64,000 nt of DNA. Source: Mycobacteroides immunogenum (GTDB lineage Bacteria; Actinomycetota; Actinomycetes; Mycobacteriales; Mycobacteriaceae). The DNA is taken from assembly GCF_001605725.1 (NCBI RefSeq), contig NZ_CP011530.1:4774001-4838000 (forward strand), in the 5' to 3' direction. The first letter of the stretch is position 1, and each line of letters begins with the position of its first letter. Made by a program: the position numbers and the translations under genes. The notes under the pieces are model-generated. The model saw only the letters and a program-made list of their open reading frames with translations. It was not told where the DNA came from and did no database searches. This document shows positions 10,615-25,879 of the stretch, piece after piece.

Positions 10615-10633
10615 CTACACCGGACGCGCCACA

Positions 10634-11812
10634 TCAGCGAAGCGGTTCCGAGGGAACGTCGTAGCGCTCCTGGTATTCGGCGACCTCGTTGCGAACGGTG
10701 TCGAAGTCCAGTCCGGTGTCGTGCCAGGAGTACCAGGCACCAGCATTCTCTTTGGGGTTCGCACGTAAGAACTCCCGCATCCGTTCCTCCACCTCGGGTC
10801 GCAGTTCCAGATCCAGGCGGTTATAGATCTGCCTGACCACCATGAACGGGCGGGCGATGAAATCCGCAAACCGGACGTCGAAAATTCTGTCGACGGGCAC
10901 CGCACCCTCGTCGCGGAAGTGCATCTCTCGCTTAAGCCCGACACCGATTTCCTCGTGCCATTGCTCGGCGACATCTGCAAGTTTGCTTCCGTCCGAGCCG
11001 ATTTTTCGCAGATGGTGAATGGTCGCGCTGACCGACGCGAGAACCTTCAATGGATCACGATGCGTCTGGACGATGAATGCGTCGGGATACTCACCGAACA
11101 ATGCGTCAAGCGACCAGATATGTGCGGGTGATTTCAGCAGCCAACGACCCGGCACACCAGACTGCAAATGCTGAAGGTACCGGCGATGGTACCTGTATGC
11201 GGGGCCATAGTCGGGCTCGTAGAGCAACCATCGATAGTACGACGGGATTCGATAGGACGACGAAAAAACCATACTCCGGAACTGTCCCGTCCAAATTCGG
11301 ACGCATTCTTGGCCGAGCAGCGCACCCATCGGATGAATCTTCTGGAATCCCGGCATCATGGACTCCACCATGTCGTACTGCGATTGCGTCTGTTCGATCC
11401 GCGGATCGGTCCGGTACGTCGCGGCTGTCGGTGCCGGGTAAGGGTTATCCACTTCCCAGGTCAGCGGGGAACGCAACTGGGGATCCTGCGCCAGCATGTC
11501 GTAAAGGATCGTCGTGCCGGTACGGGGTTGTCCCACAATGAAAATTGGTCGCTCAACCTTCTCGTGGACGACATCCGGATGTTCGGCACGCCACGAGGAC
11601 ACATAGAGACGGTTGCGCATCGCAAGCACTAATTCTGACGCGCCGAACTCCACACCCAGAGGACTCAGCTGTGCTTCGTGGATCATCGCGTCCACCACAC
11701 GCGCGAGCCCGTCCCGCCAGCCGTCTTCCTCACCGAAATCATCGGAGCCGGCCGCCGTACAAGCCTCATCGACAAGGCGCTCCAGTCGAAGCCGTTCGAC
11801 CGCGGACGTCAA
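10634..11812 (-). CDS. PAPS-dependent sulfotransferase family protein, cluster copy
   Basis: A 392-residue protein with the 5'-phosphosulfate loop PIFIVGQPRTGTTILYDML and the 3'-phosphate segment VQTHRDPLKVLASVSA. It is a Stf/Rv3529c-like sulfotransferase and resembles the second copy at 29974-31149. I chose the TTG at 11812: it overlaps the DUF1214 stop (TTGA) and follows a strong GAGGGGGA Shine-Dalgarno sequence, whereas the frame extending to 11872 overlaps DUF1214 coding sequence. Together with DUF1214 it forms a leftward operon divergent from the P450/carrier-protein operon, so it may sulfonate the product of that cluster (inference). Confidence 0.85.
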   Translation of the reverse strand: MTSAVERLRLERLVDEACTAAGSDDFGEEDGWRDGLARVVDAMIHEAQLSPLGVEFGASELVLAMRNRLYVSSWRAEHPDVVHEKVERPIFIVGQPRTGTTILYDMLAQDPQLRSPLTWEVDNPYPAPTAATYRTDPRIEQTQSQYDMVESMMPGFQKIHPMGALLGQECVRIWTGQFRSMVFSSSYRIPSYYRWLLYEPDYGPAYRYHRRYLQHLQSGVPGRWLLKSPAHIWSLDALFGEYPDAFIVQTHRDPLKVLASVSATIHHLRKIGSDGSKLADVAEQWHEEIGVGLKREMHFRDEGAVPVDRIFDVRFADFIARPFMVVRQIYNRLDLELRPEVEERMREFLRANPKENAGAWYSWHDTGLDFDTVRNEVAEYQERYDVPSEPLR

Positions 11813-12894
11813 CGGTCCCCCTCGGACCGCACCGCCACCTTGACGGCGGGCGCCTCGGGATTGTCCAACCACCGCACGATGACAAAACCTCGCCTGCGTC
11901 CGCCGGTATCGAGCCAGTGCCCGAGCCCCTGATCGGAGGCGCCGATCGCGATTCGCACCAACCCATCAGCGTCCGGCCGAACCCCCTTGTTCGATACCGA
12001 GCTGTGCCGACGCCGCGGTTCGAGGAGTTCATGAAAGATGTTCTCCAGGGTCACATTCCAATATCTGACGGCAGGTGGCGCGAATTCCAATGTGAGAGTC
12101 TCATCCGGTGCGAGAACGAATGTGCCGATCATGTACAGGTTGTCCGGGTTAGCGTCGGCGACTCCCACTACCTGAGCAGACGCCGTCACGAACACATTGG
12201 GCTGCTCCAAAAGCTCTGGCTTGATCGTGAGGTGCAGGGTCGAAAGCTTGATCATCGCCCACGCCATCGAGGTGAACCGCTCGGCGAGTTCCTCGTCGGT
12301 GATGCGGGTGGGAGGCCCCGGGTCTAGGACTTCGATCTCCAATGTCGCTGGAACCTCCTCGGTGGCGTCGGCAATGTATTCGCGCACCACGAAGCTCGAC
12401 ACATCCGGCGGGGTCTGCACCCATTGCGCCCCGGCGAGCACATCGTCCGCAGGTCTCACGCTTGACAGCACAAGGTCGAAGGCGCCGGCCTTGTCGAGCA
12501 CCAGATCGGTGTCGCTGACGAATGCCGCCATCCGCCGCGGCTCCATCCCGATGCCAGCGAGGATCTGAATACCCAAGTAAACCGACGTGCCGCGATGGCC
12601 CGTGAGTCGATACGTGCGTCCGCCACCGACCATCGCCAGGTAATAGTTGCCGTCGGGGTTGGGCCCACCCACCATCCGTCCCGCGGTACACATGTCCAGA
12701 AACCAGGGGTTGTCCGGGTCCGCGTCGAGCGTCATCTCCGTCGACAATGTCATCACCCTGGCAAGAAACCGCGCCGCCTCCAATTGCTCGGATTCATCAA
12801 TCGCGCCATTTCTTAACGTCGTGTTCAAATCTTGCAGCGTTCGCTGCACAAAACCCCAACTCTCGACTGTATGGGGACCCCACTCATTCGCCAT
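11809..12894 (-). CDS. DUF1214 (DUF1254-like) domain protein, cluster copy
   Basis: The roughly 361-residue frame carries the DUF1214 pattern PDNLYMIGTFVLAPDETLTLEFAPPAVRYWNVTLENIFH and ends WLDNPEAPAVKVAVRSEGDR. It is related to the Rv3531c-type protein at 31951-33123, and each is paired with a sulfotransferase. No biochemical role is established for this domain in mycobacteria. ATG 12894 (MANEWGPHTVESWGF) is preferred because homology begins there; the frame remains open upstream to an ATG at 13029. It is divergent from P450-A; the gap is 152 bp with this start. Confidence 0.75.
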   Translation of the reverse strand: MANEWGPHTVESWGFVQRTLQDLNTTLRNGAIDESEQLEAARFLARVMTLSTEMTLDADPDNPWFLDMCTAGRMVGGPNPDGNYYLAMVGGGRTYRLTGHRGTSVYLGIQILAGIGMEPRRMAAFVSDTDLVLDKAGAFDLVLSSVRPADDVLAGAQWVQTPPDVSSFVVREYIADATEEVPATLEIEVLDPGPPTRITDEELAERFTSMAWAMIKLSTLHLTIKPELLEQPNVFVTASAQVVGVADANPDNLYMIGTFVLAPDETLTLEFAPPAVRYWNVTLENIFHELLEPRRRHSSVSNKGVRPDADGLVRIAIGASDQGLGHWLDTGGRRRGFVIVRWLDNPEAPAVKVAVRSEGDR

Positions 12895-13046
12895 AGCCAG
12901 CACTCTCAGGAGAGAAATCGGACACGAATTGCAGATTTTGACACCACCTCGCCGGTGCCAAGCCGATTGTATGGAAGCCGCAGCGGCGAGAAGTGAATTC
13001 TTCAAGATTCCCCAGACGGGCATCACCAAATCTGTAGCATGACGCC

Positions 13047-14417
13047 GTGCTTGCAGATACCAAGCTCCACCTCATGCAAAGACTGGAAGTCATTCCCCGA
13101 TTAGGCGATACCGCCGGCATGATGCTCGATCCCACACAGTTTTTGCTTTACAAACACCTCAAGTATGGCCCCGTGTCCGAGCTGAAGACGCTATATCAAA
13201 CCTACATCGTGCTGAGCGGGATGGAAGCCGCAGCCTTTGTCAGCAGCCGTGATGGACGCGAATGCCTCACCGTTGGCAATGCCTGGAAATTCATAGAAGA
13301 GGAATTCTCAGCAACCGCGACGCTGGTCACCACAGATGGACAGGAACACAAGGAGATACGCGGAGCACTTCAACGCGGCTATTCCCGAGACGCCATCACG
13401 GGCCGCTACGACGAGGCCGTCCGAATCATCGATGGCAGTGTCGACAGCACGTGGCAACAGGGCAGCAGCGTACCGGTCGTCACTGCCATGCAGTCTTTGG
13501 TGATTCGGCTGCTGGGCACCCTGATGTCGGGCTCACTACCCTCGGATGAAATCGTTGACTCCATCAGCTATGTTTCGGATCGTATTCTGAAAGTTGTTCC
13601 AGTACAACAAATTCCCAAGTTCATGTTGCGCCGCGGCCGCTATCTTGTCGAGCGACAACGCGTCATCGAGTTCGCATCCGACACCCTGCGAATCGCCGCC
13701 GAGCGGCGCGGCAACGGTACGCGCGGCAGCAAGCCAACCCTGATCGACGACATTCTGGACACCTACCAACCCGAGTCTGGCGGGGAGTTGCAGGACAACA
13801 CCGTGATCAATGCGCTCCTACCCTTCTTCGCAGGTATCGAGACAACGGCATCAACCACTTCACTGGCTTTGTACATGATTCTTAGCAACCCTTCTGTACT
13901 GGATGCAATACGGCAGGAGCTCGATCAGTTGTTCGCCGGTGACAACGTCGAACATGAGTCACTTTTCCGTGGTGCCCCCACCCTTCACGGTGCTATCAAT
14001 GAAACGATGCGCCTTCATCCCGTAGCCGCCACTTTGGTGCGATTCGCGAAGAAGGATTTTGAATTCCACGGATATCGCGTCCGCAAAGGAAGCAGGATAC
14101 TGGCAGCGACTTCCGTATCGCATTTCCTGAACGATTGTTACGAAAATCCGGAAGAATTCGATGTACATCGATATTCCGCACGTGCCGCCCAACACCGACA
14201 GCCCGGCGCCTATTCGCCATTTGGACGGGGCGAACACATGTGCATAGGCAAAGGCGTAGCGGAAGAACTCATGATGATCATCATGGCGCGGCTACTATTC
14301 CGGACAGAGATCATTCTCGATCCACCCATCTATGAATTGAAAAAGCGGTTGGCATCGACGGGTCCGGCGGAGAATTTCGCCGTGAGAGTTGTGGGGAATC
14401 GCCGTGCCTCCGCGTGA
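13047..14417 (+). CDS. cytochrome P450 (P450-A), first gene of carrier-protein cluster
   Basis: A 456-residue soluble P450: I-helix oxygen-binding AGIETTAS (about 262-269), ExxR in NETMRLHP (E319/R322), and heme loop SPFGRGEHMCIGKG with ligand Cys399. No membrane anchor is seen. It is related to P450-B at 22263-23633 over its whole length but is not one of the steroid P450 types (CYP125, CYP142) that I recognise. It starts at GTG 13047 and overlaps the FAD monooxygenase by 14 bp, so it leads the rightward operon. Codon use is visibly less GC-rich than in the flanking steroid genes. Substrate: probably an intermediate of the cluster. Confidence 0.88.
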   Translation: MLADTKLHLMQRLEVIPRLGDTAGMMLDPTQFLLYKHLKYGPVSELKTLYQTYIVLSGMEAAAFVSSRDGRECLTVGNAWKFIEEEFSATATLVTTDGQEHKEIRGALQRGYSRDAITGRYDEAVRIIDGSVDSTWQQGSSVPVVTAMQSLVIRLLGTLMSGSLPSDEIVDSISYVSDRILKVVPVQQIPKFMLRRGRYLVERQRVIEFASDTLRIAAERRGNGTRGSKPTLIDDILDTYQPESGGELQDNTVINALLPFFAGIETTASTTSLALYMILSNPSVLDAIRQELDQLFAGDNVEHESLFRGAPTLHGAINETMRLHPVAATLVRFAKKDFEFHGYRVRKGSRILAATSVSHFLNDCYENPEEFDVHRYSARAAQHRQPGAYSPFGRGEHMCIGKGVAEELMMIIMARLLFRTEIILDPPIYELKKRLASTGPAENFAVRVVGNRRASA

Positions 14418-15666
14418 CGTCGAGTGCGCCATTGTGGGCGGTGGACCCGCCGGAATGGTCCTCGGCCTCATGCTGAGCAGGGCCGGACTCACCGTCACTG
14501 TGCTCGAGAAACACGCCGATTTTCTCCGTGATTTCCGCGGTGACACGGTTCACGCCAGCACCCTCGCGATGCTCGACGAACTGGGCCTCGGGCCCGCCTT
14601 CAAGGAAATAGACCATCAGGTCGTCGAGAAGATCGGGGTCCAACTCGACAGCGGCACCTTTGTCATGGCCGATATGACAGGTCTGCCGGGCGCACACAAG
14701 CACATCGCGATGGCGCCGCAGGCGGAATTCCTGGAGATGCTGGCGCACGCGGCCGAACAGCTACCGAACTTTCGCTTGATGCGTAGCTGCGAAGTCACCG
14801 GCGTGGTGAAGTCGCAAGCCGGCAGGGTCACCGCCGTTCAATACCGTGACATCGATGGCCGGAAGCAGACTTTGGCAGCGCATCTGATTGTCGGATGCGA
14901 TGGGCGCAACTCCGCGCTCAGAGACGCCGTGGGCCTCCGCCCACGGCCCTTCGGTTCATCGATCGACGTGTGGTGGTTCCAGCTTCCGAAGCACCCGGAT
15001 GATCCTGTGGGCCTGCGCGCACGGGTGAGTTCGCGACGGCTGATGCTCATGCTCGACCGTGGTGACTACTACCAGTGCGGCTTCCTCATCGGCAAAGGCG
15101 CCGATCAAGCGGCGCGAGAGGGCGACCTGTCCACCCTGACACATGCGATTGCCGAGCTAGTACCGCATTTCGCCGATCGCGTGAGGTCACTTCGAAGCTG
15201 GGACGACATCAAGCTTCTCGACGTGCGATTGAACCGGCTTCGCCGCTGGTACGTAGATGGCGCGCTGTTCATCGGCGACGCCGCACACGCCATGTCACCG
15301 CTGGGGGGTGTTGGCGTGAACTTGGCTGTCGCGGACGCAGCCGCCGCGGCGCGACTACTCGCTAACCCTCTCCTCGCGCATTGCGTGACAACCAGGGATC
15401 TGCGGCGAGTGCAGCGCAGACGCTGGATTCCCACGGTGGTCTACCAGCTCTTTCAACGCATGGCCCATCGCCGGATTCAGCGCCACGTACCCGGACAGGC
15501 ACCGCAGATCGACAACCATCGCACCCCTTTGGGGGCCGTCTTGATGCAGCGATTCCCAGCGCTGTGCCGGTCTGCCGGTTACGCGATGGCAATCGGATTA
15601 ATGCCAGAACATGCACCCGAATTCGCCCGTCCCATACCTGATATACGAAATGAGGTCGCACCATGA
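14404..15666 (+). CDS. FAD-dependent monooxygenase (PHBH-like group A)
   Basis: This 420-residue protein has the dinucleotide fold ECAIVGGGPAGMVLGLMLS, the mid-protein HLIVGCDGRNSALRDAVGL (DG motif region) and the second FAD motif FIGDAAHAMSPLGGVGVN. These are the signatures of single-component aromatic/polyketide hydroxylases. GTG 14404 is chosen because GGGGA lies about 7 bp upstream; a TTG at 14389 is a weaker alternative. It overlaps P450-A at its start and the acetyltransferase at its end (ATGA). Its role is probably hydroxylation or oxidative decarboxylation of a cluster intermediate. Confidence 0.87.
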   Translation: MPPRDVECAIVGGGPAGMVLGLMLSRAGLTVTVLEKHADFLRDFRGDTVHASTLAMLDELGLGPAFKEIDHQVVEKIGVQLDSGTFVMADMTGLPGAHKHIAMAPQAEFLEMLAHAAEQLPNFRLMRSCEVTGVVKSQAGRVTAVQYRDIDGRKQTLAAHLIVGCDGRNSALRDAVGLRPRPFGSSIDVWWFQLPKHPDDPVGLRARVSSRRLMLMLDRGDYYQCGFLIGKGADQAAREGDLSTLTHAIAELVPHFADRVRSLRSWDDIKLLDVRLNRLRRWYVDGALFIGDAAHAMSPLGGVGVNLAVADAAAAARLLANPLLAHCVTTRDLRRVQRRRWIPTVVYQLFQRMAHRRIQRHVPGQAPQIDNHRTPLGAVLMQRFPALCRSAGYAMAIGLMPEHAPEFARPIPDIRNEVAP

Positions 15667-16295
15667 CCGCGCCGCAAGTCACCGTACGCCGACTGCCCAA
15701 GCGTGAAGTCCTGTCTGCCTCAAAATTATTGGCCGCAGCGTTCATCGACGACCCGCTATGTCTGGCGGTTAGTCCGAAGGCGGAATCCAGCCGGCGATTC
15801 ACCTTGCGCTGTTTCAACCTCGCCGAACTGGTCATCGCCTTCGGGCGACGGGCCTACGTGTACGGCGCCTATACCGATGGGCGGCTGAGCGGCGTCGTGA
15901 TCGCCTACCCGAACGGAACCGACTTTCCGTGGTGGTCGTGGCTGGTCCGATTACCTGCCGCCGTGCCCTCGCTACTGCTGGCAGGCCCACGAACGATGAT
16001 GCGGGGAGCCAAGATTCTGAACGACATCGAGGACATGCGACCGACCGAACCGTACGTACATTTCTGGACGGTCGGCGCCGCCAGCGATACCCGCGGAATT
16101 GGCGTCATGTTGCTGCGCAAGGTTCTCACCGAACATGTCGATCCCGAGCACCGGAACGCGTTTCTGGAGGCAGCGGGCCCTCATCTACTCGAGCTGTACG
16201 GACTCCTAGGCTTTGAGGAGCAACAGGAATACGTCCTCCCCACCGGAGAGGCACTGATCACGATGTGGCGTCCCGGGGTGAAAGATCGCTTATGA
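15663..16295 (+). CDS. GNAT N-acetyltransferase family protein
   Basis: This 210-residue protein has a GNAT core with the acetyl-CoA loop SDTRGIGVMLLRKV (R/Q-x-x-G-x-G/A type) and a C-terminal strand YGLLGFEEQQEYVLPTG. It could acylate an amino group of the pathway product or give self-resistance; the sequence cannot separate these. ATG overlaps the FAD monooxygenase stop and its own stop overlaps the next ATG. A TTA Leu codon near the N-terminus is one of several in this block, unusual for mycobacteria. Confidence 0.8.
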   Translation: MTAPQVTVRRLPKREVLSASKLLAAAFIDDPLCLAVSPKAESSRRFTLRCFNLAELVIAFGRRAYVYGAYTDGRLSGVVIAYPNGTDFPWWSWLVRLPAAVPSLLLAGPRTMMRGAKILNDIEDMRPTEPYVHFWTVGAASDTRGIGVMLLRKVLTEHVDPEHRNAFLEAAGPHLLELYGLLGFEEQQEYVLPTGEALITMWRPGVKDRL

Positions 16296-17338
16296 CACAG
16301 TCTTCGGCAGATCCCAGCCCGTTGCTCAACGCGCTTGAAACGCTGTTCCCGGTGCCGTGTGAATACTGGTCACCCGATACGTCCGCGGCCGTCGCAGAGC
16401 AATTACTCGGCTGTGGCACCGCCACTCTCGACGAATTGACCGCCCAGGGGCTGCCCCATCGAATACTCGATGGGGAGACTTGGTACGACCAATGCGATCT
16501 TTTCAACCTCGCGCTCTACAGCGGATCCGGTGCTACACCGCCGGAGATGTCCTTTCGATTTGCCTTGCGATGGATGTCGTCACCGCTTGACGATCTACTA
16601 GTGCGGCGCAGCTGGTCCTTTCGCGCGGATATCTCTTGCCCACAACCCGATACCTGCGGGGGTAACGCGGAATCTACGTTTGCCGTGCCTATTCCCGAGT
16701 TGTACGGGGGATCGATCGCCGTGGAGCCGAACGAGGGGGCATCGCCCGTAGTAGATTCCGACGGACTGCTGCACAGCGTCACAGACGACGGGGCGTTATC
16801 GCTACAGGCATCGCTGAGGCTCGGCGGTGATCACGCAGCGATACTGTCGCCGGAGATCCGCGAGATCTATTCAGCCTTTCTCGACAACCGTCCTCGCTGG
16901 GTCAAACTGCCACCCGAACTACACATCGAGGTCGATTTACTCGAAGCGCACGGGGTGGCGACATGTGTCAGTGCGAGCTTGTATCTGGAACGCGAGTTGC
17001 GAAGGGCCGGTTTGAATGTGCGCACCCGCCGGGGATGGGTGTTGGGGATGCTTGATCTCGTGCACGCATGGGTCGAAGTACTCGACAGCGACGGCACCGT
17101 GCGCGTGATCGATCCGATCTTCGGGCTCTTCTCGGCAATGCTGCCCAACGCAAACCCATTGCTATCTGACCCAAACATGAGCATTCGGTCCAACCGCGTA
17201 CTGCCCACTGGCCGCAGCGCAGCGCAGCCGATTGCGCGCCACCGTTGCGGCGGGGAAGAATCCGCACCGAAAACTCGTCTACGAATCGCACCGGTTCCCC
17301 TCCCGGAAGCACAGTCCCCCAACGGAGTACCGATATGA
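16292..17338 (+). CDS. transglutaminase-like cysteine acyltransferase/protease-fold protein
   Basis: A 348-residue protein of unclear family. The segment around GVATCVSASLYLERELRRAG, then LDLVHAWVEVLD, then VRVIDPIFG places Cys225, His258 and Asp274 in the order and spacing of a transglutaminase-like Cys-His-Asp triad. The N-terminal 200 residues show no domain I recognise. A transglutaminase-like fold can form amides from thioesters or amides; in a cluster with tethered aminoacyl groups it could be the condensing or releasing enzyme (inference). Both ends overlap neighbours by ATGA, and TTA codons occur at least three times. Confidence 0.6.
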   Translation: MTQSSADPSPLLNALETLFPVPCEYWSPDTSAAVAEQLLGCGTATLDELTAQGLPHRILDGETWYDQCDLFNLALYSGSGATPPEMSFRFALRWMSSPLDDLLVRRSWSFRADISCPQPDTCGGNAESTFAVPIPELYGGSIAVEPNEGASPVVDSDGLLHSVTDDGALSLQASLRLGGDHAAILSPEIREIYSAFLDNRPRWVKLPPELHIEVDLLEAHGVATCVSASLYLERELRRAGLNVRTRRGWVLGMLDLVHAWVEVLDSDGTVRVIDPIFGLFSAMLPNANPLLSDPNMSIRSNRVLPTGRSAAQPIARHRCGGEESAPKTRLRIAPVPLPEAQSPNGVPI

Positions 17339-18225
17339 CGAAACACGCTGCGATCACTGATGATGACACCGATCTGATGCGCCTTCTGGACCGACTGTCT
17401 GAGATGTCCGAGCGGGATTACTACAATCCGTATCGCACCTTCGACTGGCCGGCGGAGCTGCCACTGGACGAGTACTGGATGAGTCCAGAACTGTTGTCGG
17501 TGCATAACACCGTCTATGAGGGCCAGTTGTCCGACGCACAGCTTTTAGCGCTGAGTCGTTGGGAAAGCATCAATTTCTACAGCCTAAACGTGCATGGGAT
17601 CCGCGAACTGCTCATCGAGATCGCCGCCCGTATCCACACCAGAGGATTCGAGCCCGCCTCGGAGTATCTACACCACATCCTCGGCGAGGAGAACGAGCAC
17701 ATGTGGTTCTTCGCAAGGTTCTGCACGAACTACGGCCAAAAGATCTACGACGACAAGCAGATGCGTTTCAACAATTCCGGGGACCCCGACGCCGCCGATT
17801 TCCTGGTCTTCGCGAGGCTGTGGATCTTCGAGGAAATCGTGGACTATTACAACGCAAAGATGGCTACCGACAAGCGGTTACATACCACTGTGCGCCAAGT
17901 CAACGCGATTCATCATCGGGACGAGTCTCGCCACATCGCGTTCGGTCGTCAAATCGTCGGGCACCTCTGGACCAGGCTCAGAGAAGAACTCACCACGGAA
18001 AGACTCCGCGAGATCGGCGATCACCTAAGCACATACATGGATGTCTCCGCACAGTCCACGGTCAGTCCGGCGGCCTATCGCGATACCGGACTTCCGGAAC
18101 CATATGCGCTGCGCCGCAACGTCTTGGCATCCGACGGGTGGAAGGAACACAAAGGAAACATGCTCAAACGTCCCACTGAGTACTTGACCAGAATCGGCTG
18201 CCTGGAATCCGGGGCAAACACATGA
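17335..18225 (+). CDS. AurF-like non-heme di-iron oxygenase
   Basis: This 296-residue all-helical protein has the carboxylate/His ligand order of the AurF (p-aminobenzoate N-oxygenase) / ferritin-like family: an early Glu in LSRWESINFY (E77), ExxH in GEENEHMW (E119/H122), Glu in WIFEEIVDYY (E166/167), and HxxxExxH in IHHRDESRH (H193/E197/H200). The three-His pattern is that of AurF/CmlI-type enzymes that oxidise amines to hydroxylamine or nitro groups; CmlI-like relatives act on carrier-bound substrates. Directly upstream of a carrier protein gene (ATGA overlap), it may oxidise the tethered amino acid, on nitrogen or carbon. Confidence 0.8.
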   Translation: MTKHAAITDDDTDLMRLLDRLSEMSERDYYNPYRTFDWPAELPLDEYWMSPELLSVHNTVYEGQLSDAQLLALSRWESINFYSLNVHGIRELLIEIAARIHTRGFEPASEYLHHILGEENEHMWFFARFCTNYGQKIYDDKQMRFNNSGDPDAADFLVFARLWIFEEIVDYYNAKMATDKRLHTTVRQVNAIHHRDESRHIAFGRQIVGHLWTRLREELTTERLREIGDHLSTYMDVSAQSTVSPAAYRDTGLPEPYALRRNVLASDGWKEHKGNMLKRPTEYLTRIGCLESGANT

Positions 18226-18461
18226 CCAGCAGCGGAGTCGGCCACCAGTTCGTCATGGACTTCCTCCGCGAGCGGCGACCCGACATCGGCCCTCTCGATC
18301 CGAACCTGGACCTCATCGAATCCCGCATCATCAGCTCGATGATGTTCGTGGAATTTCTGTATCGACTCGAGGAGAAGACAGGGCAAGAGATAAATCTAGA
18401 AGATGTTGTCCCCGACGACTTTCGGACCATCAATCAGATAGAGGCACGGTTCTTCTCATGA
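18222..18461 (+). CDS. stand-alone acyl/aminoacyl carrier protein, CP1
   Basis: A 79-residue four-helix carrier-protein-like product. The 4'-phosphopantetheine site would be Ser39 in RIISSMMFVEFLYRLEEKTG; the usual Asp before the Ser is replaced by Ser38, while the following V-E-F and the 'EEKTGxEI' helix agree with carrier proteins that partner amino acid:carrier-protein ligases. It lies between the di-iron oxygenase and the ligase with ATGA overlaps at both ends. It needs a phosphopantetheinyl transferase from elsewhere in the genome. Confidence 0.8.
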   Translation: MTSSGVGHQFVMDFLRERRPDIGPLDPNLDLIESRIISSMMFVEFLYRLEEKTGQEINLEDVVPDDFRTINQIEARFFS

Positions 18462-19309
18462 GCAACGACTACCGGCAAGGGATGACCGCCGCCGCGGGGC
18501 TGGTCACATTCGATGAGTCCACATCCGCGCTGCGCACAAGCCTTGATGAGGTCTTTCTCTCCTGGGCGCGGCAAGCGGGAGCGAGGCCGATGCACTATCC
18601 ACCTCTCGTCGACGTAGAGGGACTTGCGCAGCTCGACTATTTCCGCAACTTCCCGCAGCTGGCGGTCCTCGCGACCGGATTGAACCCCGCAGCACAGAAG
18701 CAGTACGCGTCTCAAGAATCTCCCACCGATCACATCGGCACGGCGGATGTCGATACTGTGCACTATGCATTGCCATCGGCGGCATGCTTCAACGTCTATC
18801 TGTCACTGCGTGGAGAGCTTCTTACTGCCCAGCACACCATCACCACGTCTGCCACCTGTTTCCGGCGCGAGGACGAGTATCACGATCGTCGTCTGCTGGC
18901 CTTCACCATGCGCGAGATCGTCTTCCTTGGCGAACGCGAGCAAGTGTTGGACAACCTCGCCGATCTGAAGAAGGTTGTTACAGCATTCGCAGAGCACCTT
19001 GGTCTTCCACTCGCACTGGAGAACTCCACTGACCCCTTCTTCGAATCCGGTGGAGCGCGCGCACTGATGGCACAACTCTTCCCGGTAAAGCAAGAGTTCG
19101 TCTACCACGGCAAACGCGAGCCGCTGGCGATCGGCTCGGTCAATTTTCACCGCAACTTTTTCGGCGAGCGGTGCGGTATCCAGCTCCCCGACGAGTCTGC
19201 CGCCTACTCCGGATGCGTGGCCTTCGGGCTGGAGCGATGGGTATCGGTGCTGAGCGAACAGTTTGGCGAGGAAGCGGTTACACGATTGAACGGAGTCATC
19301 ACGCAATGA
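18458..19309 (+). CDS. amino acid:[carrier protein] ligase (class II aaRS-like)
   Basis: This 283-residue protein is a truncated class II synthetase core with no tRNA-binding domain. Motif 2 is TCFRREDE and motif 3 is AFGLERW. Cys134, Glu153 and Cys253 match the Cys-Glu-Cys zinc site of atypical SerRS-like enzymes that activate glycine or alanine and load it on the phosphopantetheine of a carrier protein. It is encoded between two carrier-protein genes. The reaction (amino acid + ATP + holo-CP to aminoacyl-S-CP) is inferred from this family; which amino acid is used cannot be read directly. Confidence 0.82.
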   Translation: MSNDYRQGMTAAAGLVTFDESTSALRTSLDEVFLSWARQAGARPMHYPPLVDVEGLAQLDYFRNFPQLAVLATGLNPAAQKQYASQESPTDHIGTADVDTVHYALPSAACFNVYLSLRGELLTAQHTITTSATCFRREDEYHDRRLLAFTMREIVFLGEREQVLDNLADLKKVVTAFAEHLGLPLALENSTDPFFESGGARALMAQLFPVKQEFVYHGKREPLAIGSVNFHRNFFGERCGIQLPDESAAYSGCVAFGLERWVSVLSEQFGEEAVTRLNGVITQ

Positions 19310-19527
19310 GTGTTGCGCTACGCGAGCTGATGGCCAAGGTGTTCAAACGCGACATCGCGGACCTGCCCGACGAACCTGATATCGACAATGTCAAGAATTG
19401 GGACTCGTTGCGGCACACCATGCTGATGATGTCCATCGAGTCCGAGTATGGTGTGACCGTCCCACCCGACCTTGCCCCCACCCTGACCTCGTACGCCGCG
19501 ATCAGCCAATTCCTTGAGCAGTCGTAG
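19306..19527 (+). CDS. acyl carrier protein, CP2
   Basis: The 73-residue product is a typical carrier protein: the phosphopantetheine Ser34 lies in NVKNWDSLRHTMLMMSIE and is followed by the EYGVTVPPD helix. ATG 19306 overlaps the ligase stop (ATGA) and is chosen over an upstream in-frame start at 19171 that would lie inside the ligase. The canonical DSL motif contrasts with CP1, suggesting that the two carriers hold different groups, for example an aminoacyl and a polyketide/acyl partner. Confidence 0.85.
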   Translation: MSVALRELMAKVFKRDIADLPDEPDIDNVKNWDSLRHTMLMMSIESEYGVTVPPDLAPTLTSYAAISQFLEQS

Positions 19528-19534
19528 GCGAGCC

Positions 19535-21658
19535 ATGGTGCATAACGGGAGGTACAGCACGCCCACCGCAGCCACGCTCAACACGCTGGCCGACCTCAAC
19601 CGCGACGGCCGTCCGAACCTATTGTTCGCAGGCTTGGCCATCACGCCCGAAGCAGCGCAATTGGGGTACCTCCTGAGTCGACTCCACGATCCCAGTACCA
19701 ATCACTTTTTGCTGCTTAAGAATTCGCCGGAAGAGGCCATCTCCGCGGCGGTGAGAATCGCCCGCCACAGCGGAAACATCAATGCTAAGAATGGCAATTC
19801 GGTACTGATCGTCGGAGCACCACCTGCGCTGAAGACGTACTTCAATCCACTCGATGAGCCAATTGACACGGCACTGGTACCCGGAATTCGGTTTGAACCC
19901 TCGGTGCGCACGGCAGCGGAACTTCTGTCCTCGGAAGCATTCTCGGCCGTACTGAGCGTGCTCGGCGAGGGTGCTGACAACATGTCCCTCCGCACCCTCA
20001 ATGAGGTCGCACGTGCACGGGGACTGCTGAGCGGTGTCTATGACACCCGCCCGTTGGCCGCCACCCTCAGCGACACCGGCTTTGGCGCCGCCGCGACTGC
20101 AGCCGACATGTACATCTACGGAGAACACCTGGTCGACGACCAGGTACCCTTCGGGTGCCTTTTGATGACTCCCCATGCGTACCGCGTCTGGGACAACCCC
20201 TTGGACGGGATGTCGCAGGGATCCACGTTCTCGTCCAGCACCGGTGTACTCACCATCGCCATCGACACCTTGCGCCGTAGAGAACTCCTACGCCATCAGG
20301 ATGAAGCGGTGCTGCGCCAGATCGGGGCAGATCGCAAGGTCCGCAATGAGTACTTCGGTCGATACGTCAATCCGCACGCGGTGACTCTCCTGGAATCGTT
20401 CGGTTTGGATTTCGAGTTTCGCCATGCCGCAGGTATGACCATGGAGCTTTCCGACGGGCGCAGTCTGTGCGATTGCACAGGAGGTATGGGATCCAACTTG
20501 CGTGGTCACAATCCGCCGGACAACGTCCGAGATGTCTTCACCGACCACGACGAAAGTGTGGACTATTCCACGCAACTCGCCGATACCTTGCACAGGCTGA
20601 GCGGATTCCCCGAGATGTTCACTGCGGTCAGTGGAACCACCGCCGTGGAGAATGCCTTGGCACTGGCGCGACTGGCGCGGCCACTGCGGCCCAAGATCGT
20701 CTCGTTCACCGGAAACTTCTCCGGCAGATCGCTCGCCCCCATCAGTGTCAGCCGCTACGGTCCCCCACTGCCTTCCTCTATTCCCGATGCATTCGCGCCC
20801 TACTGCCCGGGGGTGGTCTTCGTGGACCCGTTCTCTACCGACGCCGCGAAGCAACTCACGCATGCACTGTCCGATCCCTCCGTCGGCTTGGTGTGGTGCG
20901 AGCTCATCCAGGGCAGCTCGTGTTTACCGATACCCCAACACCTGCTGAAGATCATCGAAGATCTCAAACCCGCCGGCGGTTACCTGATAGGGGTCGACGA
21001 GATACTCACCGGCGCGTGGCGCGCAGGCGAAGAGTTTCTCTACCATGCGCGGAATCTGCCGTCGGCGGATCTAGTCGCCATTTCAAAGCCACTTTCGGAC
21101 ATGACTATTCCGATGGCAGCAGCGTTGACCACTCGACAGGTGGTCGACGCTGCGCGCCGCACGGACAGCGCCGCAGTGGATCAGCTACAGACCCAGTACC
21201 GCAACAACTTGGGCGCTCATATCGCCACACATGCCCTGGCTAAAGTAGATACCCCAGGAGCTCACGCCGAACGCCGAAAAGCCCGCGAGATTCTCGCCGA
21301 GGGCCTTGAACAACTGGTCAAAAAGTCCTCACTCTACGAAGGGGTTACCGGCGGTGGCGCACAGCTGCGACTGATTCCCTCGCGAAAGTACTTTCCTTTT
21401 AAGTCAGGATCTTTCGCGGCCGAGATGACCGAATCATCTTTCGAAAACCTCGTGCTACAACGATGCGGTGTCATCCTCAGCCGGGGAAGATTCCTCTTTC
21501 CGATATTCCCTCAGGCACACGATCTGGAGGAAACTATGCGGCGCATGCAGCGACTCGCGGACGTCAGTCCGATAACCGTCTACCGCGGCACCGCAGTCAA
21601 TGTCGTGAAGCTGTTCGTCCACATGGGATTACAGCGTCTACGCCGATCCCGCGGGTGA
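19535..21658 (+). CDS. fused double class III aminotransferase (N-terminal half degenerate)
   Basis: This is a 707-residue protein. The C-terminal 420 residues are a class III PLP aminotransferase: SGTTAVENALALAR, SFTGNFSGRS, Asp in LIGVDEILTGAWR and the PLP Lys in VAISKPLSDMTIPMA (about K518). The N-terminal 280 residues repeat the same fold in weakened form (NSPEEAISAAVRIARHSG; later GSTFSSSTGVLTIAIDTL), but the Lys position reads IYGEHLVDD and has no Lys. So one inactive and one active copy are fused. It probably transfers an amino group to a carrier-bound or free ketone. ATG 19535 is preferred over TTG 19514, which overlaps CP2. It is convergent with, and overlaps by 21 bp, the methyltransferase gene. 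Confidence 0.82.
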   Translation: MVHNGRYSTPTAATLNTLADLNRDGRPNLLFAGLAITPEAAQLGYLLSRLHDPSTNHFLLLKNSPEEAISAAVRIARHSGNINAKNGNSVLIVGAPPALKTYFNPLDEPIDTALVPGIRFEPSVRTAAELLSSEAFSAVLSVLGEGADNMSLRTLNEVARARGLLSGVYDTRPLAATLSDTGFGAAATAADMYIYGEHLVDDQVPFGCLLMTPHAYRVWDNPLDGMSQGSTFSSSTGVLTIAIDTLRRRELLRHQDEAVLRQIGADRKVRNEYFGRYVNPHAVTLLESFGLDFEFRHAAGMTMELSDGRSLCDCTGGMGSNLRGHNPPDNVRDVFTDHDESVDYSTQLADTLHRLSGFPEMFTAVSGTTAVENALALARLARPLRPKIVSFTGNFSGRSLAPISVSRYGPPLPSSIPDAFAPYCPGVVFVDPFSTDAAKQLTHALSDPSVGLVWCELIQGSSCLPIPQHLLKIIEDLKPAGGYLIGVDEILTGAWRAGEEFLYHARNLPSADLVAISKPLSDMTIPMAAALTTRQVVDAARRTDSAAVDQLQTQYRNNLGAHIATHALAKVDTPGAHAERRKAREILAEGLEQLVKKSSLYEGVTGGGAQLRLIPSRKYFPFKSGSFAAEMTESSFENLVLQRCGVILSRGRFLFPIFPQAHDLEETMRRMQRLADVSPITVYRGTAVNVVKLFVHMGLQRLRRSRG

Positions 21659-22261
21659 ATTGGGGCGCGCGAGTGTCAGGGTGGTGGGCACCCATATCCG
21701 GGTGAATCGTTTGACCGGCCACTGGCCCAATACCGTGTAACCGCAACGAGTAATACGCTCGCTGAGTACTTTCGCGGTGGTCAGCGGCGCATCGGGGTGG
21801 TCACGTCCCGTCAACCGAGCAATCCACGGATACAGATTGAACGATGCGATCACGATGAATCCACTAGGCCGCAGGACCCGGCGAAACTCTGCCAGCGCGG
21901 CGGGCTGGTCGAAGAAATGGAAGGCCTCGGTGCTAGTCACCGCGTCCACCGAAGCGTTTTCCAATGGCAAGCGTTCCGCAGAAGCCTCATGCCACGACAC
22001 CTTGGACGACCGTGCGATGCCTTTCGCCAACAACCCCGGGCTGGGATCACATCCATGTACTGTTACACCAAATTCGTCGGCAATTCTTGCAGTGAGAACC
22101 CCTGTGCCACAGCCAATATCAGCCACACTGGTGGGCCTCATCTGCTGCAGGACGGCGACCACCGCGTCATGATTCGGCCGGTAGACGCTACGCTGCAACG
22201 CGGGAGCGTCATAGATCCCGGACACTCGGTCGAAGAATCGGGTGACAAATTGTCGTGCCAT
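21638..22261 (-). CDS. SAM-dependent methyltransferase (class I)
   Basis: This 207-residue protein has SAM motif I VADIGCGTGVLTARIADEF, the acidic motif II region VHGCDPSP, motif III with VTSTEAFHFFDQP and LRPSGFIVIASF. It is of the small-molecule methyltransferase type (Methyltransf_11). ATG 22261 begins 1 bp after the P450-B stop, so both are in one leftward operon facing the carrier-protein operon. It likely O- or N-methylates a cluster product. An in-frame start further upstream (22303) lies inside P450-B and is rejected. Confidence 0.85.
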   Translation of the reverse strand: MARQFVTRFFDRVSGIYDAPALQRSVYRPNHDAVVAVLQQMRPTSVADIGCGTGVLTARIADEFGVTVHGCDPSPGLLAKGIARSSKVSWHEASAERLPLENASVDAVTSTEAFHFFDQPAALAEFRRVLRPSGFIVIASFNLYPWIARLTGRDHPDAPLTTAKVLSERITRCGYTVLGQWPVKRFTRIWVPTTLTLARPNSPAGSA

Positions 22262-22262
22262 A

Positions 22263-23633
22263 TCAAACCTCTGCTCGTAATGGCCTTCTGGCCCCAACGT
22301 CAAGCCGCATATTCAGCGCCAATTCCGTCCCGTAGCTGTGCCTTCCGGTGGGCTGATAGTCAGCCTTCGACGGCGCGAATTCACGTTGGTGTATCAGCCT
22401 GGCAACGGAAAGCGGAATTATCACCTCGGCGATCCGCTTGCCGAGGCACAAGTGAGGCCCGCGCCCAAACGGCGAGTACGCACCCGGCTGTAGATGTTCC
22501 TTCCGATCTCCAAGGAACCGCCAAGGATCGAAATCATGTGGAGAAACAAACAATTCTTCGAGGAAGTGCGGGACACATGTCGCGATCATGATGGGCTCCT
22601 CGGCTTCGATGCGATAGCCCGCGAAGGTGAAGTCGCGGCGCGCGTGTCGCATCAAGACCGGAACCGAAGGAAACATCCGCATCGTTTCCTTGACACATCC
22701 GTCCAGGACCGGGATGGACTCGAACAATGACGGCTCGTCAATGCTATCGAGTGCGAACAATCGGTCGGCCTCAGCCAGCACCTCGCGATAGATATCTGGC
22801 CTGCGCCAGAGCATATAAAGAACAGCGGCAATGGTATTGGATGTCGTGTCCAGTCCTGCCATGAACGGAATGAAGAGATTGAAAGGGAGTTCACGATCCG
22901 CCATGAAATCGGGGTCCTCCCGATTCGCCGCGACCAAGTCGTCGAGCAGGCGGCGGCCGAAGTCATCATCGGCCATGGGCGGCCGGGCCCTAAAGAAGGC
23001 CAATGTCTCGGCCGCGTTCTTCTCCATTATTGCCTTGGCTTTCAAGAACTTCGGAAGCTTCAGCATCCAGCCGGGCCAACGCTTGAGTAGATGGACGTTG
23101 GTTATCCAATGGATGTGCGTTCGCAGATCATCGACATCATCGAAAAACGGTGCACCGGCCACCGCCACGCCGACTTCCGCAACGCTCAGTCGTTGAATCG
23201 TGGTGACCGCCGGTATCAACTGCCCCACCGGACAGTAACGGTCAAGCCAGTCATCGATTACCGCGATGATCTGGTCATATCGTCCATCCAATGCGTGTCT
23301 CGAATAGCCGTGTCGCATAATGTCTCTGAACCGCGCATGCGACTCTCCATCATTGCCGATCACCGCGTTCTCGGCGCCGAAGGCGCCATACACACCCTCC
23401 CAAGAGGGCATCGAATACAGACAGTCCCGCCCTTCTGCCGTACCTGGCAGCATTGACGCTTCCGTACCTGCCAGCACGGTGAACCTGCGGTTCAGCGCGC
23501 GAACCCGGAAAACGGGTCCGTAACGTTCAAAACATTCTGTGAAGAATCGTGGCATGTCGTTGAACATGGACATGGTGTTCCCAATCAGCGGCGTTCCCGC
23601 CGCTACTGGGATCTCCCCGAGCCCTCCGCGCAT
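22263..23633 (-). CDS. cytochrome P450 (P450-B)
   Basis: A 456-residue P450 with I-helix AGLDTTSN (259-266), ExxR in KETMRMFP, and heme loop SPFGRGPHLCLGKR (Cys396). It has the same length as P450-A and aligns with it along the whole chain, so the two are probably in-cluster paralogues. ATG 23633 is preceded by a GGGGAG Shine-Dalgarno sequence. A near-consensus KstR box lies about 40 bp upstream. It is not a recognisable CYP125/CYP142/CYP124, so a role in the accessory pathway is more likely than in cholesterol side-chain oxidation. Confidence 0.87.
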   Translation of the reverse strand: MRGGLGEIPVAAGTPLIGNTMSMFNDMPRFFTECFERYGPVFRVRALNRRFTVLAGTEASMLPGTAEGRDCLYSMPSWEGVYGAFGAENAVIGNDGESHARFRDIMRHGYSRHALDGRYDQIIAVIDDWLDRYCPVGQLIPAVTTIQRLSVAEVGVAVAGAPFFDDVDDLRTHIHWITNVHLLKRWPGWMLKLPKFLKAKAIMEKNAAETLAFFRARPPMADDDFGRRLLDDLVAANREDPDFMADRELPFNLFIPFMAGLDTTSNTIAAVLYMLWRRPDIYREVLAEADRLFALDSIDEPSLFESIPVLDGCVKETMRMFPSVPVLMRHARRDFTFAGYRIEAEEPIMIATCVPHFLEELFVSPHDFDPWRFLGDRKEHLQPGAYSPFGRGPHLCLGKRIAEVIIPLSVARLIHQREFAPSKADYQPTGRHSYGTELALNMRLDVGARRPLRAEV

Positions 23634-23672
23634 GCATCACTCCCCGTGTCTGCATTCCAACCTTGCAGGAAC

Positions 23673-23686
23673 TAGAACACGTTATC
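23673..23686. promoter_or_regulatory. near-consensus KstR-like box upstream of P450-B
   Basis: TAGAACACGTTATC keeps all fixed bases of TnnAACnnGTTnnA except the last (C for A). It lies 40 bp upstream of the P450-B ATG. It may bind KstR or the KstR-like regulator encoded at 47749; a chance match is also possible. Confidence 0.5.
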
Positions 23687-23868
23687 CCGGGGCACGTGGA
23701 TACGACGTTGATTGGGCGACATTTACACCAACGCTACGTGACCAGCCTCCTACACCCGATAGAGCTGGACACTGCGTCTAATAATGCGTCTGCACAACAG
23801 AACTCGGTACCGGGCGGCGACAGCACCTCCTCATTACGCGCCGCCAGGCCGCGGGCCACCGGAGACGC

Positions 23869-23909
23869 ACACAAAGACCCCCGCGCTCAGGCGTCGGGGG
23901 CCTTTGTGT
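23869..23909 (-). terminator. stem-loop terminator after the ferredoxin reductase gene
   Basis: Arms ACACAAAG-A-CCCCCG (from 23869) and CGGGGG-C-CTTTGTGT (to 23909) pair over 14 of 15 positions with an 11-base loop. It lies 8 bp beyond the stop of the leftward reductase gene. No long U tract follows, as is usual in mycobacteria. Confidence 0.7.
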
Positions 23910-23916
23910 CTTCACG

Positions 23917-25263
23917 CTAAGAGGCCTGGCGCCCGGCGCTGATCATCTCCTCGCGCGGTACCACTTTGATGCGTTCGCGGCCCTGCTCTTCGCCGAGTGC
24001 CACCTCGTGAGCGTCGAGCCGCTCCCACTCCTCCCAGGTGGTGTAGTCAATCCCGCTTCCCCGCAGATGCGCGAATATCGCATCGGGGTCCGAGATTTCG
24101 GCGGGTTGGATACCCGGGAGGTCTGCGAGCAGGCTCGCGATCGTTTCGGCGGCGTCAGATTTGGTGTGCCCGATCAATCCGACGGGCCCGCGCTTGACCC
24201 ACCCCGTGACGTAGGTGGACTCGACGGGAATCCCGTCGATATCGAGCACCCGGCCCGCGTCATGAGGGACGACACCAGCGTGGTGATCGAACGGGAGGTC
24301 GGCCAGATGCGAGGAAATGTAACCAACCGCGCGATAAACGGCCTGCACCGGCCAATCGGTGAATTCGCCTGTTCCCCTGACGGTTCCGTCGCCGATGAGC
24401 TCTGTCCGCTCGGTGCGCAAGCCCTCCACCCGGCCGGTGCCGAGCACGGCCGCCGGCGACTGGCACAGATGGATATGAATACGGTGCGGCGCCCCGGTGG
24501 GCTCTTGATCCAGGTACTTCATCATGGTGTCGACGACCAGCTTGGTGGCCTTGCTCGAGTTGATGGCCTGCTGGCTGCCCTCGTCGATCTCGAATCCCTC
24601 CGGATGCACAATGACATCCACGCTCGGCGAGTGCGACAGTTCACGAAATTCCATGGGGCTGAACTTGATCTGGGCCGGTCCGCGCCGCGCGAAGACGTGC
24701 ACATCGGTGGCCTGGTTGAGCGCCAGCCCCTGGTAGACGTTGGCGGGGATCTCGGTGCCGAGTTGTTCATCGGCGGGTTTGGCCAGCATCCGGGCGATAT
24801 CGAGCGCCACATTTCCCGCGCCCAGGACCGCAACGCTCGTGGCGGTCAGCGGCCAGTCCCTGGGGACATCGGGATGACCGTCGTACCAGGACACGAAATC
24901 TGCGGCACCGTAGCTTTCCGGCAGATCGATGCCCGGGATATCGAGTTCGCGATCGGCGCGGGCGCCGGTGGAGAAGATCACCGCGTCATAGAAGCGGCGT
25001 AGGTCCGAGAGCTTGATATCGGTGCCGTAATGGACATTGCCGATGAATCTGATCTCATCGCGGGAAAGCACCCGGCGTAGGGCCTTGATGATCTCCTTGA
25101 TGCGCGGATGGTCCGGCGCCACGCCGTAGCGCACCAGGCCGTACGGCGCGGGCAGCCGATCGAAGACGTCAACCTGCGCCTGCTCGTACTCCTTGGTGAG
25201 GATGTCGGCGGCATATATACCGGCCGGACCTGCGCCGATGACCGCGACTCGAATCTTCCTCAT
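23917..25263 (-). CDS. ferredoxin-NADP+ reductase, FprA/adrenodoxin-reductase type, iron-regulated
   Basis: This 448-residue protein has the FAD fold IRVAVIGAGPAGIYAADIL, the RYGVAPDHPRIK signature of adrenodoxin-reductase-like enzymes, the NADP fold VAVLGAGNVALDIARML and the C-terminal YVTGWVKRGPVGLIGHTKSDA. It passes electrons from NADPH to ferredoxins that feed P450s or reductive iron release. ATG 25263 is chosen: AAGGGGA lies just upstream, and the longer frame (to 25302) would run across the IdeR box. That box, 26 bp upstream, implies expression under iron limitation. Confidence 0.88.
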   Translation of the reverse strand: MRKIRVAVIGAGPAGIYAADILTKEYEQAQVDVFDRLPAPYGLVRYGVAPDHPRIKEIIKALRRVLSRDEIRFIGNVHYGTDIKLSDLRRFYDAVIFSTGARADRELDIPGIDLPESYGAADFVSWYDGHPDVPRDWPLTATSVAVLGAGNVALDIARMLAKPADEQLGTEIPANVYQGLALNQATDVHVFARRGPAQIKFSPMEFRELSHSPSVDVIVHPEGFEIDEGSQQAINSSKATKLVVDTMMKYLDQEPTGAPHRIHIHLCQSPAAVLGTGRVEGLRTERTELIGDGTVRGTGEFTDWPVQAVYRAVGYISSHLADLPFDHHAGVVPHDAGRVLDIDGIPVESTYVTGWVKRGPVGLIGHTKSDAAETIASLLADLPGIQPAEISDPDAIFAHLRGSGIDYTTWEEWERLDAHEVALGEEQGRERIKVVPREEMISAGRQAS

Positions 25264-25289
25264 GCCATCCCCTTGCGATTTGGAATCTA

Positions 25290-25308
25290 TTAGGTAAGGC
25301 AAGCCTAA
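25290..25308. promoter_or_regulatory. IdeR (iron box) operator
   Basis: TTAGGTAAGGCAAGCCTAA matches 16 of 19 positions of the mycobacterial IdeR consensus TTAGGTTAGGCTAACCTAA. Both outer half-sites are intact. It lies between the reductase gene (26 bp from its ATG) and the divergent deazaflavin-type gene at 25386, so it most probably controls the reductase. Confidence 0.8.
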
Positions 25309-25385
25309 AAAGAATTCCGGCAGAAGTGGGACGCACGTCCAGAGATCCCGGTCACACCCCGATCGGACCCCAGTAGCCTGATCGC

Positions 25386-25874
25386 GTGGTTGTCGCCCTC
25401 GTCGTCATCGGTGTCATCGCCGCCGTGCCACTGACACTGTTCTCACTGGTCGTGGCGGGCATACGCCTGCAGAATCGCCCCATTCTCAACGCCATCCGTC
25501 GGTTCAATCGGGCCGTCACCAATCCGAGGATCATGTCCACCGCCGGAACGGACGCCACCTCCACGGCCGTCATTCGGCACATCGGAAGACGCAGCGGCCA
25601 CGCCTATGAGACCCCGGTCGAGGCCTTCAACGCGCCGGACGGCACGGTGCTGATCCTGCTGCCCTACGGACAGTCGGCCGACTGGGTGCGCAACGTGACG
25701 GCCCAGGGCGGCGCCGAATTGCTTCGGGCGGGCGAACAGCTCAGGCTGTCCCATCCGCGGGTGGTCCCCACCGCCGAGGTCCGCACACAGCTGCCCGCCA
25801 AGGAGCAGCGAATGATGCGGCTGTTCAACGTCCCCGAGTGCCTACGACTGACACGGGAACAGGAGCGGGCGTAA
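25386..25874 (+). CDS. deazaflavin-dependent (Ddn-like) split-barrel protein with N-terminal membrane anchor
   Basis: The 162-residue product opens with a hydrophobic span (residues 1-26, VVALVVIGVIAAVPLTLF). A split-barrel segment follows: RHIGRRSGHAYETPVEAFN, VLILLPYGQSADWVRNVTAQGGAEL. That is the signature of the nitroreductase-family, F420-binding Ddn/Rv1155-related proteins (PF04075). The GTG start has no clear Shine-Dalgarno sequence, so the mRNA may be leaderless. The substrate is unknown. It ends 5 bp before the convergent carbonic anhydrase. Confidence 0.8.
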   Translation: MVVALVVIGVIAAVPLTLFSLVVAGIRLQNRPILNAIRRFNRAVTNPRIMSTAGTDATSTAVIRHIGRRSGHAYETPVEAFNAPDGTVLILLPYGQSADWVRNVTAQGGAELLRAGEQLRLSHPRVVPTAEVRTQLPAKEQRMMRLFNVPECLRLTREQERA

Positions 25875-25879
25875 CGCCG

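Follow-up and report, generated by a model that had tools for sequence, protein, structure and literature searches.

Organization of the segment

Here we describe a gene set inside the steroid-breakdown locus of Mycobacteroides immunogenum, in a stretch of 64,000 nucleotides (NCBI RefSeq assembly GCF_001605725.1, contig NZ_CP011530.1, positions 4,774,001 to 4,838,000), which as a whole we call the window. An extra segment at about 10615-25879, mostly of low guanine-cytosine (GC) content, carries the genes of a transglutaminase-fold protein (TGL), an AurF-like diiron oxygenase (AurF), a stand-alone carrier protein (CP1) and a seryl-tRNA-synthetase-like amino acid:[carrier protein] ligase (LIG). 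Around this cassette lie a second carrier protein (CP2), a two-part aminotransferase (AT), two cytochromes P450 (P450a and P450b), a FAD-dependent monooxygenase, a methyltransferase and a sulfotransferase (Table 1). No nonribosomal peptide synthetase (NRPS) or polyketide synthase (PKS) gene is found near the cassette in the window. The genes named in the initial annotation are all present and intact; all frames are open, starts and stops overlap, and catalytic residues are conserved.

The segment is absent from the same place in relatives. Eleven other genomes have a match to ltp3, and the locus comparison covers seven stretches from among them. In these seven, tblastn (E 1e-8) found none of P450a, the FAD monooxygenase, GNAT, TGL, AurF, CP1, LIG, AT, the methyltransferase, P450b and the FAD oxidoreductase. 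Six of them have kshA at most 4 kb from ltp3; the seventh (L211) showed no kshA over 19.6 kb. In L212, 8 bases separate the match to the open reading frame (ORF) at 10213-10614 from that to the carbonic anhydrase. Because the relatives join the flanking genes without the island genes, we place the boundaries wider than those first drawn (12895..23640), which were too narrow: the sulfotransferase, the DUF1214 protein, the FAD oxidoreductase and the small ORF also belong to the segment.

Between 10 and 24 kb the GC content in 1-kb windows is 0.56-0.63, and to the left it is mostly 0.64-0.67; that of single genes from the sulfotransferase to P450b ranges from 0.54 to 0.63. TGL is present in one of 396 genomes of the genus sample, and a close LIG in one of 198, with ten others having relatives at 26-35% identity. 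The GC content, the genus sampling and the seven ltp3 relatives support a lineage-specific, probably acquired segment.

Paralogues of the two leftmost genes lie beyond kshA in the window, one of the sulfotransferase (169 bits) and one of the DUF1214 protein (81 bits), with an SDR-like ORF between them. Such a homologue pair is also found beyond kshA in six of the seven ltp3 relatives.

Table 1. Features of the extra segment in the window
Feature	Position	Strand	Basis
Segment absent between neighbouring genes in relatives	10615..25879		locus comparison and GC
Sulfotransferase (Sulfotransfer_3), paralogue of 29974-31149	10634..11872	-	PF13469 E 5e-39; GC 0.596
DUF1214 protein, paralogue of 31951-33123	11809..13029	-	PF06742 E 3e-8; GC 0.607
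Cytochrome P450 a, haem-Cys motif FGRGEHMCIG	13047..14417	+	PF00067 E 6e-50
FAD-dependent monooxygenase (PRK06185 family)	14389..15666	+	NF004833, 543 bits (cut-off 488)
Possible GNAT-type acyltransferase	15663..16295	+	Acetyltransf_10 E 0.066 only, under cut-off
TGL, transglutaminase-fold protein with Cys-His-Asp	16292..17338	+	triad residues and predicted fold
AurF-like diiron oxygenase	17335..18225	+	PF11583 E 1e-30; residues over 32 rows
CP1, stand-alone carrier protein, Ser39	18222..18461	+	PF00550 E 3e-4
LIG, seryl-tRNA-synthetase-like amino acid:[carrier protein] ligase	18458..19309	+	NF005479 E 4e-36; 3mey_A match
CP2, second carrier protein, Trp-Asp-Ser-Leu site	19306..19527	+	PF00550 E 2e-4
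AT, class III aminotransferase (PigE/ArgD-like) in C-half	19535..21658	+	C-half matches, Lys525
UbiE-like S-adenosylmethionine methyltransferase	21638..22303	-	PF08241 E 1e-21
Cytochrome P450 b, haem-Cys motif FGRGPHLCLG	22263..23633	-	PF00067 E 2e-47
FAD/NAD(P)-binding oxidoreductase	23917-25302	-	right part of segment, higher GC
Small ORF	25386-25874	+	right part of segment, higher GC

The cassette in other genomes

At E 0.001, 2833 of 6480 candidates are relatives of LIG. A LIG relative is encoded in 255 genome stretches, of which the best 80, about the closest third of the family, were analysed, and the counts given here describe these closer relatives only. They refer to 78 loci: L108, where gene calling gave no genes, and L094, where it gave no LIG, are not among them, nor are L042-L061, several of which duplicate counted loci. 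Outside the window, genes were delimited with a home-made codon-usage caller.

Far from being unlinked in all other genomes, an outcome that the initial annotation had allowed for, the genes recur together: within 6 kb of LIG a carrier protein is encoded in 76 of the 78 loci and AurF in 71. TGL and a member of the nitronate-monooxygenase (NMO) family are found there in 25 loci each, a PAD-type deiminase in 10, a condensation domain and an MT20-family methyltransferase in 9 each, and an R2-like oxidase in 8. Where TGL is present, the order TGL-AurF-CP1-LIG is contiguous and on the same strand in 24 of 25 loci, the exception being L077, which has no AurF called there. With or without TGL, the LIG-CP-AurF set occurs in Actinomycetota, Pseudomonadota, Acidobacteriota and Elusimicrobiota. 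The idea that the cassette is unique to the window was rejected, as LIG relatives and the cassette are found in many genomes.

In the LIG tree the window groups with P0011-P0014 (support 100/99), and this group then joins six TGL loci (L062-L066, L069) through a weak fork (80/49). For LIG, TGL and AT alike, the relatives at 77-86% come from a contig 103,984 bases long and those at 52-59% from one of 13,351 bases; from these equal sizes, the three genes probably stay together in other lineages.

The neighbours of the cassette vary. An NMO-family gene stands directly 3' of LIG in 22 loci; the member in L117 matches PF03060 at E 3e-31, while the top NCBIfam match of the PF03060 gene after LIG is FabK, under the cut-off, and the NMO activity is putative. 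The MT20 methyltransferase family adjoins AurF in nine loci, six of which have a MetK-family gene and six a PfkB-family gene. Annotated neighbours in representative LIG loci include phosphopantetheinyl transferases and an alpha/beta hydrolase, and those in L063 and L064 include an AMP ligase, an R2-like oxidase, a GMC oxidoreductase and a class III aminotransferase.

A distinct cluster type is seen in L080, L081, L083, L095, L096, L099, L100, L106, L109 and L115, where AurF-CP-LIG is joined by a PAD_porph-type deiminase and mostly by a condensation-domain protein. AurF-CP-LIG also occurs in metagenome-assembled genomes of Elusimicrobiota (L087, L088, L091) and on a Tistrella mobilis plasmid (L075).

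Active sites and relatives of the enzymes

LIG matches 3mey_A over residues 34-266 (E 1.2e-26) and has, like Bll0957 (3mey, 4h2s), a class II SerRS-like catalytic domain. Three of its residues, C110, E153 and C253, are invariant in all 27 aligned rows; in the alignment with 3mey_A they fall on Cys151, Glu196 and Cys299 of Bll0957, which we take to be zinc ligands. However, LIG is shorter (283 amino acids against a 346-residue chain), and it scores under the cut-off of that NCBIfam family, with 125 bits to NF005479 against a curated 357 in spite of the low E-value (4e-36). The neighbours of amino acid:[carrier protein] ligases named in PMC2922099 include neither AurF nor TGL.

The phosphopantetheine site of CP1 reads Ser-Ser-Met in place of Asp-Ser-Leu. 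Its Ser39 is kept in 25 of 25 rows, and the serine before it stands where 20 rows carry Asp and 4 Asn. The best relative of CP2 among the genes called in LIG loci reaches E 0.007 only. In 8 of the 25 TGL loci the gene immediately 5' of TGL encodes a small carrier, and no match was obtained between CP2 and this carrier; among the scanned island proteins no loader for CP2 was found. Because the stand-alone ligase, the carrier and the AurF-type oxygenase travel together, the most economical reading of the sequences would be that LIG loads CP1 and that oxidation follows on the carrier, which supports what the initial annotation had proposed. Valdiazen-type systems load the carrier via an NRPS adenylation domain, unlike the route proposed here through the aminoacyl-tRNA-synthetase-like LIG. 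An adenylase loads the Dob carrier, according to PMC12154687.

The six predicted metal-ligand positions of AurF/CmlI/Dob3-type N-oxygenases are all present in the window AurF. E119, H122, E166, H193, E197 and H200 are found in 32 of 32 rows and E77 in 31, with Gln in L082. H193, four residues before E197, is the counterpart of the seventh histidine, H225 of Dob3, and the window AurF has the same H-x3-E-x2-H spacing as that given in PMC12154687 for FDO N-oxygenases, with H225/E229/H232 in Dob3. Dob3 (PMC12154687) and the fragin/valdiazen systems, the subject of PMC5878181 and PMC11659414, have FDO N-oxygenases acting on amino-acid-derived substrates, as the window AurF is predicted to do. A single-query sequence search of the PDB with AurF gave nothing useful, and its profile matches in the PDB are R2-like entries.

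TGL gave no Pfam match above cut-off and, by sequence (single query and profile), no PDB chain up to E 5. In the structural model it is a transglutaminase fold, the best structural match being a putative cysteine protease, and the triad C234, H267 and D283 (numbered in the 357-residue reading from 16265) is kept in 21 of 21 rows. AdmF of andrimid, the subject of Fortin's 2007 work, is reportedly a transglutaminase-type condensing enzyme. TGL resembles AdmF and CtaJ of closthioamide in being a transglutaminase-type Cys enzyme beside carriers, with no NRPS condensation domain; this likeness is drawn from descriptions, and amide formation by TGL is predicted by analogy. The CtaJ step in closthioamide is itself a proposal of PMC6772006.

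A match to the TGL profile occurs in 13 of 394 genomes, and nine stretches were read from eight of them, with G282, G316 and G546 (short matches only) left out. TGL and LIG stand side by side in the window and in G315; of the nine stretches only L180 has a LIG match as well, and in G479 LIG lies on another contig than TGL. The suggestion that TGL is confined to the company of LIG was rejected, since most of the nine stretches have TGL without a LIG match. In L173 (7356-12372) and L174 (7412-12079) the TGL-family gene is flanked by two small carrier-like proteins, recognized by eye, and by two AMP-ligase-family genes, one to each side, with no aminoacyl-tRNA-synthetase-like ligase. In L175, L178 and L181 its neighbours are a single carrier-like protein, an AMP-ligase-family protein, and an AurF-type protein related to that of L173 (PF11583 E 5e-17). 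That TGL relatives without LIG sit among carriers and AMP ligases is the main reason why we prefer acyl transfer over hydrolysis for TGL. Near TGL and the AurF-type protein, L175 (4964-7153) also encodes a 730-residue protein with a haem-oxygenase-type iron-containing redox domain (PF14518).

AT resembles ArgD/PigE-type enzymes in its C-half, and Lys525 (714-residue reading from 19514) is invariant over the 26 rows. In the N-half, Glu204 (25 of 26 rows) occupies the segment matching the region of the pyridoxal phosphate (PLP) lysine. The half-to-half alignment is weak (E 0.0076, probability 5%), and the N-half is probably a degenerate PLP-fold half, a duplication seen mainly in the order of secondary-structure elements in the model. 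With Glu204 where the PLP lysine is expected, a second working aminotransferase was set aside, and the double enzyme with two working halves assumed at the outset was an overstatement.

Two-part AT relatives at 47-49% identity occur in six other genomes of the 198 in the genus. P450a homologues (446-530 bits) are found in all six AT loci, and strong P450b homologues adjoin AT in two, L150 and L151 (556 and 496 bits). A WS/DGAT-like acyltransferase is present in five of the six, and sulfotransferase and DUF1214 homologues in four. LIG, TGL, AurF and CP1 have no match in the six AT stretches; G147, one of the genomes concerned, encodes a distant LIG (33%) at another place. The conserved mycobacterial cluster of L152-L155 (P450, WS/DGAT, AT, SDR, flavin monooxygenase, sulfotransferase, DUF1214) is similar to the window in its homologous P450a, AT, sulfotransferase and DUF1214. 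However, it lacks matches to LIG, AurF, TGL and CP1 and has the WS/DGAT acyltransferase and SDR instead. Because the AT loci share the P450, AT, sulfotransferase and DUF1214 genes and lack the cassette, the segment is a mosaic of two sets, in which the window appears to join an amine-forming, P450-rich mycobacterial set with an N-oxidation cassette.

Proposed pathway and its alternatives

We suggest an NRPS-free, carrier-tethered pathway in which LIG charges CP1, AurF N-oxidises the bound amino acid and TGL couples the acyl group with an amine, and we give this scheme about an even chance of being correct. What the sequences show is the recurrence of the cassette, the mosaic composition, the lack of the segment in the relatives and the intact residues of the active sites; the substrates, the order of the steps and the product are those that we infer.

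Step 1: LIG, judging by its family, would adenylate a small amino acid and load it onto CP1, glycine being the likeliest.

Step 2: AurF would oxidise the amino nitrogen on CP1 to the N-hydroxy, oxime or nitro/nitronate level. N-oxidation is suggested by the known glycine-nitronate system and by the extra histidine typical of N-oxygenases.

Step 3: TGL, as a Cys-His-Asp acyltransferase, would move the acyl group onto an amine with the formation of an amide. The amine would come from the P450a/P450b/aminotransferase branch, either free or on CP2. We suggest this step because carriers adjoin TGL-family genes and because the andrimid and closthioamide systems have transglutaminase-type condensing enzymes.

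Step 4: The FAD monooxygenase, GNAT, the methyltransferase and the sulfotransferase would tailor the product.

The closest known system, reported by He and Ryan in 2021 (Nat. Chem., doi 10.1038/s41557-021-00656-8), is the glycine-derived nitronate route to enteromycin carboxamide, in which glycine on a carrier is reportedly converted by a diiron oxygenase to the nitronate, followed by O-methylation or oxidative denitrification. The citing paper PMC9967187 describes it as glycine on an NRPS, a diiron oxygenase and a methyltransferase. A carrier protein, an activating enzyme and an AurF-type oxygenase are all together in the window as well, and the NMO-family and MT20 neighbours at other LIG loci resemble the two fates of the nitronate. 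However, the window is without either branch enzyme: PF03060 (NMO) was not found among the 14 scanned island proteins, and the island methyltransferase is UbiE-like, without the HTH_65 domain of the L138 protein, although it may act on a nitronate. The window also adds TGL, the second carrier, two P450s, the two-part aminotransferase and the sulfotransferase.

Instead of condensing, TGL might be a thioesterase that frees the N-oxidised amino acid from CP1, the AT/P450 moiety being attached by another enzyme. We hold this to be unlikely: the cysteine-protease match of TGL and the missing loader of CP2 would agree with it, but the placement of the TGL-family genes of L173 and L174, with a carrier-like protein on either side, fits acyl transfer better, and L117 has an alpha/beta hydrolase adjoining the cassette besides TGL.

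It is quite improbable that AurF acts on carbon, by hydroxylation or desaturation, with a beta-hydroxy or dehydro amino acid formed on CP1. Members of the FDO family also perform C-H chemistry, according to PMC12154687, and the PDB profile matches of AurF are of the R2 type; against this stand the invariance of H193, the histidine characteristic of FDO N-oxygenases, and the NMO-family neighbours, which suggest a nitronate in related clusters.

Similarly doubtful is the assembly of a nitrogen-nitrogen bond (hydrazine or azoxy) of the valanimycin type, where the FAD monooxygenase or a P450 would make a hydroxylamine from the AT-derived amine, TGL would add the aminoacyl group and AurF would oxidise the hydrazine to the azoxy level. 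PMC12154687 reports the oxidation of hydrazines to azoxy groups by FDO enzymes, and AT and the flavin monooxygenase are both in the cluster. However, many loci that lack AT and FAD monooxygenase homologues still have AurF linked with CP and LIG, hence AurF more likely acts on a carrier-bound amino acid, and no cupin or MetRS-like protein is found among the scanned island proteins. Finally, a decayed or unrelated mix of acquired genes with no joint product, to which the altered CP1 motif and the mosaic make-up might point, is very improbable given the open frames, the overlapping starts and stops, the conserved catalytic residues and the probable linkage of LIG, TGL and AT relatives in other lineages.

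In the fullest form of the proposed pathway, a lipid- or terpenoid-like amine would be capped by TGL with a nitroacetyl (or oxime/N-hydroxyglycyl) group from carrier-bound glycine and then methylated and sulfated. Such carrier-made N-oxidised amides would form a new class of natural products that needs no NRPS or PKS modules, and TGL would be a new condensation family between two stand-alone carriers; we put this forward only as a speculative, rather unlikely picture.

The initial annotation called the pathway undescribed, which holds in part: a glycine-nitronate precedent exists from 2021 and the cassette is widespread, while no paper describing a LIG-AurF-TGL cluster was found in the literature search, outside which most subscription papers lie. 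Judging from the genes, what seems new here is the cassette combined with TGL, the second carrier and the P450/aminotransferase/sulfotransferase partners, the carrier-bound N-oxidation core itself being already known. Such a gene set inside a steroid-degradation locus is unusual in the genus sample, as the single TGL occurrence indicates. The transglutaminase-fold proteins that accompany carriers form a family, of which the window TGL is one member; by sequence this member stands apart from the Pfam families and PDB chains searched. As LIG-CP-AurF can occur with no NRPS or PKS nearby, as in the window, tools that seek NRPS and PKS genes may overlook it.

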